Shown: positions 35,124 through 41,090 of the stretch, one piece after another
Numbering within the stretch: position 1 is the first letter of the stretch
Layout: every line of letters starts with the position of its first letter
NCBI RefSeq assembly: GCF_003319125.1
Contig: NZ_QOHG01000015.1
Location: forward strand, 1 to 64,000
DNA: 64,000 nt
Source of the DNA: Blastococcus sp. TF02A-26
Lineage (GTDB): Bacteria > Actinomycetota > Actinomycetes > Mycobacteriales > Geodermatophilaceae
Reading direction: 5' to 3'
Program-made: the position numbers and the translations under genes
The notes under the pieces: model-generated
Database searches by the model: none
Seen by the model: the letters and a program-made list of their open reading frames with translations, nothing else
Told to the model about the DNA's origin: nothing

Positions 35124-35183
35124 CGACCGGCCGACTCCGGAACACGACCGCCCCGAACCCTCCCGGAAGGGGCCGCGCGCGCG

Positions 35184-35196
35184 TAGCGTCGGCCGG
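35184..35196 (+). promoter_or_regulatory. Probable -10 for the MEDS/STAS operon
   Basis: TAGCGT at 35184-35189 fits TANNNT and ends seven bases before the GTG at 35197. No ribosome site is present. A leaderless transcript is likely. Confidence 0.4.
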
Positions 35197-36024
35197 GTGA
35201 GCGCGCCCCGGCACCTCGGCTCCCCGACCGGCCTGCGGCCGGGGGACCACGCCTGCTGGACGTACGCCGACCCCGCCGAGCTCGCGGCCGCGGTGCTGCC
35301 CTACCTCGACGAGGGACGACGTCGCGGCGAGCAGCTGCTGCTGGTCGGGGAGTCCCGGGCGGTGCTGGTCGAGGCGCTCGCCGGGCTGCCCGACCGGGAC
35401 CGGCTGCTGGAGAGCGGCCAGCTCGAGGTGCGGACGACGGCGGAGGGCTACGCCACCGACACCGCGTTCTCGCCGGCCGAGCAGGTGGAGCACTACCGCG
35501 AGCTCACCCGGGCGGCCGTGGACCGCGGGCGCACCGGTCTGCGGGTCGCCGCGGACGTGAGCCCGCTGGCGCGCCAGGACCTGCACCACCTGTACGCCTA
35601 CGAGCAGGCGGCCGACGTCCTCATGGGCGAGGTGCCCATGACGGCGCTGTGCCTGTACGACGCCTCGCTCGGCGTCGACGTCCTCGGTCCGGTCGTCGTC
35701 CTGCACCCGGACCAGCACCACGGGAGGCGTCCGCCGCTCGCCCACCTCTCCGGCCGCGGTCGCTCACTGGCCCTCCGGGGCGAGGTGGACCTCACCGAGG
35801 CCGCGCACGTGGCCCGGGCGCTGCTCGACGTGGCCGGTTCCCGTCCGGGCGTCCTGGACCTCGACCTGACCGACCTGACCTTCCTCGACGTCGCCGGTGC
35901 CCGGGCCCTGGCCCGCACGGTGGCGGAGCTGGCCGGGCGCGGGGTGGTCGTGCGGCTGGTCGGGGCGCAGCGGTCGCCGGCCCGGTGCCTGGCCCTGTTC
36001 GGACTGAACGCCGAGCCGGCGTGA
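35197..36024 (+). CDS. MEDS-domain STAS (anti-anti-sigma-like) protein
   Basis: The 275-residue protein has an N-terminal MEDS domain, the sensory fold first described in DcmR (GLRPGDHACWTYADPAELAAAVLPYLDEG, and the later DVSPLARQDLHHLYAYEQAADVLM). A STAS domain follows (SLALRGEVDLTEAAHVARALLDV, then DLTDLTFLDVAGARALARTV) with Ser/Thr positions next to the LDVAGA loop. It resembles an anti-anti-sigma factor with a built-in sensor. The next gene carries a MEDS domain with an anti-sigma-type kinase, so they form a probable switching pair. Confidence 0.86.
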   Translation: MSAPRHLGSPTGLRPGDHACWTYADPAELAAAVLPYLDEGRRRGEQLLLVGESRAVLVEALAGLPDRDRLLESGQLEVRTTAEGYATDTAFSPAEQVEHYRELTRAAVDRGRTGLRVAADVSPLARQDLHHLYAYEQAADVLMGEVPMTALCLYDASLGVDVLGPVVVLHPDQHHGRRPPLAHLSGRGRSLALRGEVDLTEAAHVARALLDVAGSRPGVLDLDLTDLTFLDVAGARALARTVAELAGRGVVVRLVGAQRSPARCLALFGLNAEPA

Positions 36025-36956
36025 GCAGGGTCCGGCCGACCGGCGCCTGGGACGGCACCCGGCTCGCGCACGAGGGCTTCGTGTTCGGCACCGACCACGA
36101 GCTGGTCCACCGGGTCGTCCCCTTCGTCCTGGAGGGGTTCTCCCGCGGTGAGCCGGTGCTGGTCGTGGCCGGTGAGCGGGTGCGCAGCCTGCTGGCCGCC
36201 CACCTGGGCGCCGACCTCGGCCGGCTCGACGTCTTCGCCGCCGCGGAGACCTGGTGGCGGGGCGGGCACGGCACGCTGGAGGCCTACGACACCGACCTCC
36301 GGGCGCTGCGCGCGTCGGCGGCGAGCTGGCGGCTGGCGGCCGAGCCGGTGTGGCTCGCCGAGGACCAGGGTCGGGAGTGGAGCCGCTTCGAGGCGGTGGC
36401 CAACCGCTGCTACGACGACATGCCGTACTACAGCCTCTGCCTGCACGACCGGCGCCGGCTCCCGGAGCCGGTCCTGGACGCCGTGGCCCGGACCCACCCG
36501 CTGACCTGGGGGGCCGGGGCCCCGGTCGAGCAGGCCGGCTACGAGGACCCGGTGGCCTTCCTCCGGTCGGCCCAGCCGGCGTGGGGGCCCCGCCCGGCGG
36601 ACGCCGCGGTGCACCTGGTGACCAGCCCGTGGGAGGCCCGCCGCACCATCTGCGCGGCGGTGCCCGACGACCGGCGGGCACGGGTCGGCGACGTCGTCCT
36701 CGCCGGTCACGAGGTCGTGCAGAACGCGCTCGCGGTGGCCGCGTTCGCCGAGCTGGCGACCTGGACCGACGGCGACACCTTCGTCGTGGAGGTGGCCGAC
36801 TCCGGCCCCGGCCTCGCCGACGAGACGCTCGGCTACGTCCCGCCCGGCCCGGGCGACGGGCCGCACGGGATGTGGCTGGCCTGGAGGCTGGCCGACGACG
36901 CCGCCCTCGTCACCGGCCCGTCGGGCACGACGGTCCGGCTGTTCTTCGGCCCCTGA
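36021..36956 (+). CDS. MEDS-domain anti-sigma-type ATPase (RsbW-like)
   Basis: This 311-residue protein starts at a GTG overlapping the previous stop. Residues 10-185 are a MEDS domain (HEGFVFGTDHELVHRVVPFVLEGFSRGEPVLVVAG-like). Residues 200-311 are a GHKL ATPase: VVLAGHEVVQNALAVA (N box), EVADSGPGL (G1) and GPHGMWLAWRLAD (G2). This is the RsbW-type kinase domain that phosphorylates STAS partners or holds sigma factors. No sigma gene is adjacent. Kinase activity is inferred. Confidence 0.86.
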   Translation: MSRVRPTGAWDGTRLAHEGFVFGTDHELVHRVVPFVLEGFSRGEPVLVVAGERVRSLLAAHLGADLGRLDVFAAAETWWRGGHGTLEAYDTDLRALRASAASWRLAAEPVWLAEDQGREWSRFEAVANRCYDDMPYYSLCLHDRRRLPEPVLDAVARTHPLTWGAGAPVEQAGYEDPVAFLRSAQPAWGPRPADAAVHLVTSPWEARRTICAAVPDDRRARVGDVVLAGHEVVQNALAVAAFAELATWTDGDTFVVEVADSGPGLADETLGYVPPGPGDGPHGMWLAWRLADDAALVTGPSGTTVRLFFGP

Positions 36957-39935: not shown

Positions 39936-41048
39936 TCAGAGCGGGTCGACCGAGTCGGCCTGCATCCCCCGCTGGCCGCGACTGGCCTCGAACTCGACGC
40001 GCTGGCCCTCCTGCAGCTCGCGGTAGCCGCCGCGGTCGGGGATCGCGGAGAAGTGCACGAACACGTCGTCGCCGCCGTCGTCGGGGGTGATGAACCCGAA
40101 GCCCTTCTCGGCGTTGAACCAGTTCACCGTGCCCTGGCCGCGGTTGCCGCCCCCGCCGCCGCTGCGCCGCGCGGGCCGCTCGTCGCGACCGCCGCGTGCG
40201 GGGCCGCCCCGCTCGGGACGCCCGCCCCGGCCGCCGCCCCCGCCGCCGACCACCTGGACGGCGTCGGCCTGCATGCCTCGCTGGCCGCGGACCGGCTCGT
40301 ACTCGACCCGCTGGCCCTCCTCGAGGGAGCGGAAGCCGCCGGAGTCGATGGCGGAGAAGTGCACGAAGACGTCGTCGCCGCCGTCGTCGGGGGCGATGAA
40401 GCCGAAGCCCTTGTCGGCGTCGAAGCGCGCCACGGTGCCCTGCACCCGGCCGCCCCCGCCGTAGCCGCCGCGGCCGCCGCCCTGCTGGCCGCCCCGCTCG
40501 GGGCGTCCGCCGCGGGACCCGCCACCTCCGCCGCCGACGACGCGCACGCCCTCGGCCTGCATGCCGCGCTGGCCCCGGACGGCGTCGAACTCGACGCGCT
40601 GGCCCTCCTGCAGCTCGCGGTAGCCGGCCTCGTCGATCGCCGAGTAGTGCACGAAGACGTCGTCGCCGCCGTCGTCGGGCTCGATGAACCCGAAGCCCTT
40701 CTCGGCGTTGAACCGGGCCACGGTGCCCTGCGACCGGCCGCCGGCGCTCCGGCCGGGACCACGCTCGTCGCGCCCGCCGCGGTCGTTGCGGTCACGGCGC
40801 TCGCCGCCGCGCTCCTGGCGGCCGCCGCCACCGCCCCCGCCGCCGAGCGAGCGGACCCGGTCGGCCTGCGGGCCGCGCTGGCCCTGGCTGGCCTCGTACT
40901 CCACCCGCTCGCCCTCGTCGAGGCTGCGGAAGCCGCCCGACGCCTCGATGGCCGAGAAGTGGACGAACACGTCGTCCCCACCGTCCTCGGGCGCGATGAA
41001 CCCGAAGCCCTTCTCGGCGTTGAACCACGTGACCGTGCCCTGCGGCAT
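39936..41048 (-). CDS. Protein with four cold-shock domains and Gly/Arg-rich linkers
   Basis: The 370-residue protein is built of four cold-shock domains at residues 1-68, 107-171, 203-267 and 305-370, each starting QGTV. All four keep RNP1 (KGFGFI) and RNP2 (VFVHFS or VFVHYS). The linkers (69-106, 172-202, 268-304) are almost entirely Gly, Arg, Glu, Asp and Gln and contain RGG and GGRGG motifs. Normal bacterial Csp proteins are single domains of about 67 residues. Binding of longer single-stranded RNA or DNA, perhaps with condensate formation, is expected. The ATG at 41048 lies behind an AGGAGCGCAGGG site. A hairpin lies in the leader. Confidence 0.92.
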
Positions 41049-41090
41049 CCCTGCGCTCCTGCTCTCCGACTGACCTCACGGGTGTCCTAC

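Follow-up and report, generated by a model that had tools for sequence, protein, structure and literature searches.

According to the accessible text of a review of the field (PMC7825780), bacterial cold-shock proteins (Csps) as a rule consist of a single cold-shock domain (CSD), as the sequence-only reading of the present locus had assumed, and CSDs bind single-stranded DNA (ssDNA) as well as single-stranded RNA (ssRNA). Chains with more than one CSD are also on record, among them Caulobacter CspD with two (PMC4830024), a dinoflagellate protein with three (PMC4863620) and UNR/CSDE1 with several and a proposed multivalent mode of nucleic acid binding (PMC7825780), in each case going by the accessible portions of these sources. 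No description of a bacterial protein with at least three CSDs was found in the open-licence literature, judged mainly by titles and abstracts; two papers on bacteria, going by their accessible portions, concern multiple Csp genes and not multiple CSDs in a single chain. The family described here, with three to five CSDs per chain, departs from the textbook picture of bacterial Csps as single domains, and a wider genome sample suggests a recurrent presence of multi-CSD proteins among bacteria, which the accessible part of the review omits (PMC7825780).

The window, a 64,000-nt stretch of the genome of Blastococcus sp. TF02A-26, carries on its reverse strand a gene with an ATG start (39936..41048) for a 370-amino-acid protein with four CSDs. 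The whole protein gives four matches to PF00313 totalling 360.7 bits (cut-off 27), and a chance match is excluded because each CSD alone scores 92.1–98.2 bits (E 8.4e-26 to 1.1e-27): CSD1 at 40851..41042 (98.2 bits), CSD2 at 40539..40730 (96.8 bits), CSD3 at 40251..40442 (92.1 bits) and CSD4 at 39945..40136 (97.7 bits), all on the reverse strand. RNP1 reads KGFGFI in all four domains and RNP2 reads VFVHF, except for VFVHY in CSD2, and the domains start 104, 96 and 102 residues apart, bearing out the earlier description of four complete CSDs with intact motifs. The window's genome contains nine CSDs in all, the five outside this gene lying elsewhere in open frames of 70–145 residues.

With the bacterial CspA family (CspA, CspB, CspE) the protein shares RNP1 and RNP2, PF00313 matches above the cut-off and a predicted five-stranded unit, and its best match among solved structures is a single-CSD cold-shock protein (chain 5o6f_A, 1.8e-24). 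Unlike those proteins, which have one CSD in ∼70 amino acids, it holds four in 370, making it a multi-CSD relative and not a standard Csp, and it has long, basic, disordered linkers. The likeness to UNR/CSDE1 raised by the sequence-only reading stands for the presence of several CSDs per chain but not for the domains themselves, which are of bacterial type (360.7 bits to PF00313 versus 39.2 bits to PF23456 for the whole protein, the latter above its cut-off of 27 with no single stretch passing alone). Membership of UNR/CSDE1 was rejected on these scores, and the resemblance to UNR lies in the plan. Caulobacter-type proteins likewise have more than one CSD per chain, as CspD illustrates in the accessible part of its report (PMC4830024), but two rather than four.

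The three linkers lie on the reverse strand at 40731..40850 (linker 1, whose bounds are set by the ends of the Pfam matches), 40443..40538 (linker 2) and 40137..40250 (linker 3), and comprise 40, 33 and 39 residues. Of the 112 residues together, 53 are Gly and 24 Arg, and linker 1 also has Glu and Asp; the only aromatic residue of all three is a Tyr in linker 2. An AlphaFold2 model built on seven aligned sequences predicts four five-stranded units (block pLDDT ∼60–90) separated by linkers that are mostly at pLDDT ∼30, linker 1 included, in keeping with the disordered Gly/Arg linkers that had been proposed. Mean pLDDT is 68.2 and pTM 0.27, the latter indicating that the model leaves the mutual placement of the domains free.

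An 18-nt region directly 5′ of the ATG (41049..41066, reverse strand) is a putative ribosome-binding region: alignment of three upstream regions found it conserved within the window's own genus, and the Shine-Dalgarno region is also kept within genus g6. Long open frames on the opposite strand across the gene are in our judgement shadows of its GC-rich sequence. The gene is kept in both searched congeners (L010, L011), each with four CSDs, and the four-CSD protein is real, conserved and under selection.

Distribution and CSD number

The Geodermatophilaceae are a family of dry, irradiated surfaces. Of its 112 genomes, 58, spread over 6 of 12 genera, had a match at E 1e-28 or better; because the other 54 gave no match at that limit, such a gene is not essential to the family. 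Genus g12 (Blastococcus, including B. xanthinilyticus) had no match in this search at E 1e-28. CSD number was counted in 48 of the 58 matching genomes, covering 35 proteins and then 13 further genomes (G091, G092, G094–G097, G099, G100, G104, G109–G111 and G123); the ten left uncounted include L017, whose fifth CSD lies in a different frame, and L026, at a contig end. The count is four in the window's own genus (3/3), in g6 (15/15) and in the single genome of g9, three in g4, probably Geodermatophilus (20/20), and in the single genome of g2, and five in seven of eight Klenkia genomes (g3), the eighth showing four and running off its contig.

Contig ends affect L026 and L054, and L027, from another family of the order, is a likely relative cut in this way. 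In the public record of Geodermatophilus ruber (L145, 1740–2424), 685 N stand between two partial CSDs of a multi-CSD gene, so that public CSD copy numbers may be undercounted; the outer distance around the gap fits three CSDs. The run of N may also represent withheld bases.

Searches beyond the family were samples at strict limits rather than a census. With the window protein as query, only the window's own genome matched among 396 genomes of the phylum at E 1e-27; five candidates were scored per genome listed under a strict limit, so that this result means merely that no close relative was present. A second search, started from the Cellulomonas sp. HZM four-CSD protein, matched ten of 296 genomes of the class at E 1e-28, including the window's, and of the nine others eight encode four-CSD proteins and one a three-CSD protein. 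Confinement of multi-CSD proteins to the Geodermatophilaceae was accordingly rejected. Sampled in this way, the taxonomic range of proteins with at least three CSDs takes in strong matches in 58/112 family genomes and 9/295 other genomes of the class. The view that the multi-CSD plan is known mainly from eukaryotes gives way to the two CSDs of CspD (PMC4830024, in its accessible part) and the three- to five-CSD proteins of many Actinomycetota, and the window's type is common in one bacterial family but, in the literature covered, is not a well-described actinobacterial one.

Five of these nine, together with L060 (Cellulomonas sp. HZM) and L025, form a second four-CSD family (L060, L025 and L189–L193). 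It shares with the window's type four CSDs per chain, and its first two linkers are short (12–18 residues, 24 in L025), with at most two RGG per protein. In a CSD tree with three members of the second family, their CSDs cluster according to position in the chain even between bacterial families, unlike those of the window's type, which are partly homogenised. In Cellulomonas sp. HZM the four-CSD gene occurs twice on one contig in opposite orientations and with equal scores (L140, G532:C4 ∼69152–70069, forward; L148, 113960–114877, reverse), as if by inverted duplication or misassembly.

Linkers, stacking residues and repeat evolution

The window's linkers contain eight RGG, up to three of them within 40 residues, a count that does not go beyond two in any of 324 genes called along 400 kb of its genome. 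Ala makes up 3 of the 112 linker residues against a background of 14%, and Arg is doubled. Across the family, 103 linkers with 3961 residues contain 875 Arg and no Lys, leaving Arg as the sole basic residue besides His; from the background ratio (Arg 9.7% and Lys 1.0% in the 324 roughly called genes) ∼90 Lys would be expected, a deficit that is suggestive but no formal test, since the proteins are related and the gene calls rough. RGG itself is not kept by orthologs: its density per 100 linker residues falls from 5.63 in the window's own genus through 3.52 in g4, 2.50 in g2, 2.35 in g6 and 0.84 in g9 to 0.18 in g3. The family-wide trait is therefore a Gly/Arg-rich, Lys-free and net basic linker of 15–63 residues, and the proposed likeness to an RGG box fits the window protein but does not extend to its relatives. 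Aromatic residues account for 0–2.2% of linker residues by genus, and the linkers of relatives have much Asp alongside Arg.

The CSDs differ in one base-stacking residue, a point that the sequence-only reading had overlooked. The Trp before RNP1, which we take to be W8 in the numbering of Bacillus subtilis CspB, is retained in CSD1 and CSD4, giving these the full set of aromatics seen in the CspA family, and is replaced by Arg in CSD2 and CSD3; the same substitution of both inner CSDs is found in all three species of the genus. In all 138 CSDs compared, which come from 35 proteins including that of the window, the positions that presumably correspond to the CspB binding residues F15, F17, F27 and H29 are invariant. 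W8 is present in all 35 first CSDs and in 22 of 35 last CSDs (Phe in the other 13), and among 68 inner CSDs it is present in 20, with Phe in 39 and Arg in nine. The outer CSDs would thus retain the full base-stacking surface, and inner CSDs with Arg for the first stacking Trp are probably weaker or backbone-directed binders.

Within the window's own genus dN/dS is 0.12–0.26, the linkers having 0.18–0.26. Over seven pairs of sequences it ranges from 0.10 to 0.45 for CSDs and from 0.15 to 0.64 for linkers, the linker value exceeding the CSD value in 7/7 pairs and linker gaps occurring in 5/7. The CSDs are under purifying selection, and the linkers less so.

For the pairs of equal length, which were those compared, DNA identity within the window's gene is 83% for CSD2 versus CSD3 and 79% for CSD1 versus CSD4. 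In congener L011, CSD2 and CSD3 are 97% identical versus 83% in the other two species of the genus. The nearest relative of a CSD lies within its own protein for 50 of 56 CSDs in g6; in the window's own genus this is so for 4 of 12, while seven have their nearest relative in another genus and one is a tie. In the CSD tree (66 columns, 63 rows), the g6 representative has its four CSDs in a single cluster, and CSD2 clusters with CSD3 in Klenkia and in the window's own genus; many forks are weakly supported, 29 of 60 being open, and no deep order is claimed. The within-protein likeness in g6, in L011 and in the tree points to recombination between repeats, which would be strong in certain lineages and weak elsewhere.

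The lhr-linked subtype and gene neighborhoods

A sister subtype of the family has three CSDs with a low-scoring middle domain (71–75 bits), and its gene follows the helicase gene lhr, which encodes the large helicase-related protein Lhr, at a distance of 66–98 nt and in the same orientation at 11 of 11 loci (L152, L160, L162 and L217–L224; one from g2 and ten from g4). The middle CSD lacks a loop in the three loci that were read (L022–L024). Two of the lhr genes were compared with Pfam and NCBIfam and matched WH_Lhr, DEAD_assoc and NF007284 (1611 and 1615 bits), and the others are 94–96% identical to one of these two. The subtype shares with the window's type its family, several CSDs and Arg-rich linkers, and is set apart by its weak middle CSD and its position directly after lhr. 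None of 24 loci of the window's type has lhr within the 4.9–9 kb upstream, so that the lhr link may not bear on the window's protein, and lhr was not found upstream of five multi-CSD loci from other bacterial families. No genome with both subtypes occurs among the family matches listed at E 1e-28. In another bacterial family, genome G559 (L196 and L216) encodes a protein of three CSDs, the middle one divergent, and has no lhr within 6.4 kb upstream.

The window gene is preceded by a MaoC-like gene and followed by a cytochrome P450 gene (38741–39928, reverse strand) that begins 7 nt past its stop. A conserved operon with the P450 was rejected, both congeners having another gene at that place. 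Seven of 20 neighborhoods, from four genera, share a gene that has no Pfam match; it adjoins the CSD gene, facing it, at L153, L158, L164 and L167 (two genera), and lies elsewhere in the fetched stretch in the other two genera. Elsewhere in the window, adjacent MEDS-STAS and MEDS-HATPase genes (35140–36956, forward strand) are likely a stress-signaling pair.

A cspA-type RNA thermosensor finds no support, since a search for a 5′ thermoregulator gave no Rfam match at threshold and just two weak ones below it, both inside the coding region. Searches for sigma-70-like promoters and intrinsic terminators found none. In PHROGs the protein matched a cold-shock model and, weakly, one unknown family, and in PADLOC one CSD model; with no sign of either role, a phage or defense protein was rejected. 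A plasmid search gave 82 matching records, of which one covers at least 80% of the query at one place, in pieces.

A predicted multivalent chaperone and its rivals

We consider the protein to be, with a probability of about 0.7, a multivalent CspA-type chaperone that binds ssRNA or ssDNA and arose by tandem duplication with partial homogenization of the repeats. Nucleic acid binding is inferred from the four Csp-like OB-fold domains on flexible basic linkers, and one molecule could by avidity hold more than one site of an RNA, or more than one RNA, simultaneously, the linkers perhaps adding lysine-free arginine contacts. Its likely job would be general RNA chaperoning, antitermination or mRNA packaging, and the place of a sister subtype beside lhr points to strand remodeling. 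Duplication of a CspA-type gene and partial homogenization by recombination would also explain why genera differ in having 3, 4 or 5 copies. Weighing against this reading are the 24 loci of the window's type without lhr, the absence of a cspA-type thermoregulator at threshold, the 54 family genomes without a match, a homogenization that is strong in one genus only and the faster evolution of the linkers. At the level of design, the CSDs and disordered Gly/Arg linkers support the multivalent nucleic-acid-binding protein proposed by the sequence-only reading, and the chaperone part of that proposal is well founded.

A single-CSD gene multiplied in error during assembly has a vanishingly small chance of explaining the repeat number. 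Repeats do trouble assemblies, as the 685 N in Geodermatophilus ruber and the loci running off contigs attest, but those in the window differ in DNA, the congeners agree, dN/dS within the genus is low (0.12–0.26) and relatives with single-contig genomes (G108, G125) uphold the copy number. The multiplied domains might instead be a dosage device that makes four Csps at once, the linkers being inert, GC-rich spacers that lengthened through slippage at repeated codons. The higher dN/dS and gaps of linkers, their variable length and the use of GGC for 74 of the 93 Gly codons of the gene are as this would have it. It sits poorly with the scarcity of Ala, doubled Arg and missing Lys, with linkers still constrained in the window's own genus and with inner CSDs that diverge at W8, needless for pure dosage, and we find it distinctly improbable. 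Mycobacterial Lhr is a DNA-damage-inducible helicase, and a role in DNA repair rather than with RNA, the CSDs coating ssDNA beside an Lhr-type partner, would fit the invariable position of lhr directly upstream of the sister subtype. Lhr may also act on RNA–DNA hybrids, which counts against this role, as does the lack of lhr near the 24 loci of the window's type. Even though CSDs bind ssDNA too, as the accessible part of the review states (PMC7825780), we hold a repair function to be highly doubtful.

Phase separation, the other part of the sequence-only reading, is a hypothesis with evidence both ways. The CSDs and Arg-rich linkers would act as stickers in an RNA-dependent condensate scaffold forming a stress ribonucleoprotein body, and the combination of multivalence with RGG-rich disordered linkers in the window protein, together with Arg as the sole basic residue besides His in 103 linkers, makes condensation plausible. 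Against it stand the uneven occurrence of RGG across genera, the near absence of aromatic stickers and the abundance of Asp beside Arg in the linkers of relatives. Among the matches listed, judged mostly by titles and abstracts, there is no report of a condensing bacterial Csp; one paper, in its accessible part, covers Csps and the condensates of RNase E and RNA polymerase separately and describes no condensing Csp. As an account of the protein, a condensate scaffold seems to us unlikely. A broader version would see a clade-specific scaffold that condenses or compacts RNA, with a valence set genetically through repeat recombination, a division of labor between Trp-bearing outer and Trp-less inner CSDs, lysine-free arginine linkers and an Lhr-partnered sister form, convergent with eukaryotic multi-RBD/RGG proteins; this we regard as speculative and unlikely. 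The family offers a natural series in copy number and, between sister genera, in RGG content for testing how far RNA chaperoning and condensation in bacteria depend on valence and on arginine linkers, and the pairing of the sister subtype with lhr is a testable helicase–chaperone link.

RGG-type linkers also occur outside the Actinomycetota. A search of the phylum to which a Rhodospirillaceae genome belongs matched 81 of 299 genomes at E 1e-27, many via single CSDs, and all 15 Pseudomonadota loci that were fetched encode two-CSD proteins; CspC is a further two-CSD protein of the Alphaproteobacteria. Judged by eye, the linker contains two or more RGG in three of the 15 (L204, L206 and L210), so that the CSD-RGG-CSD plan occurs in more than one phylum, and this apparently independent occurrence of RGG linkers speaks for the condensate scaffold. 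By their sequences these three would be better condensate candidates than the window protein. The linkers of L204 and L206 are rich in GGF or GGY, unlike those of the window.
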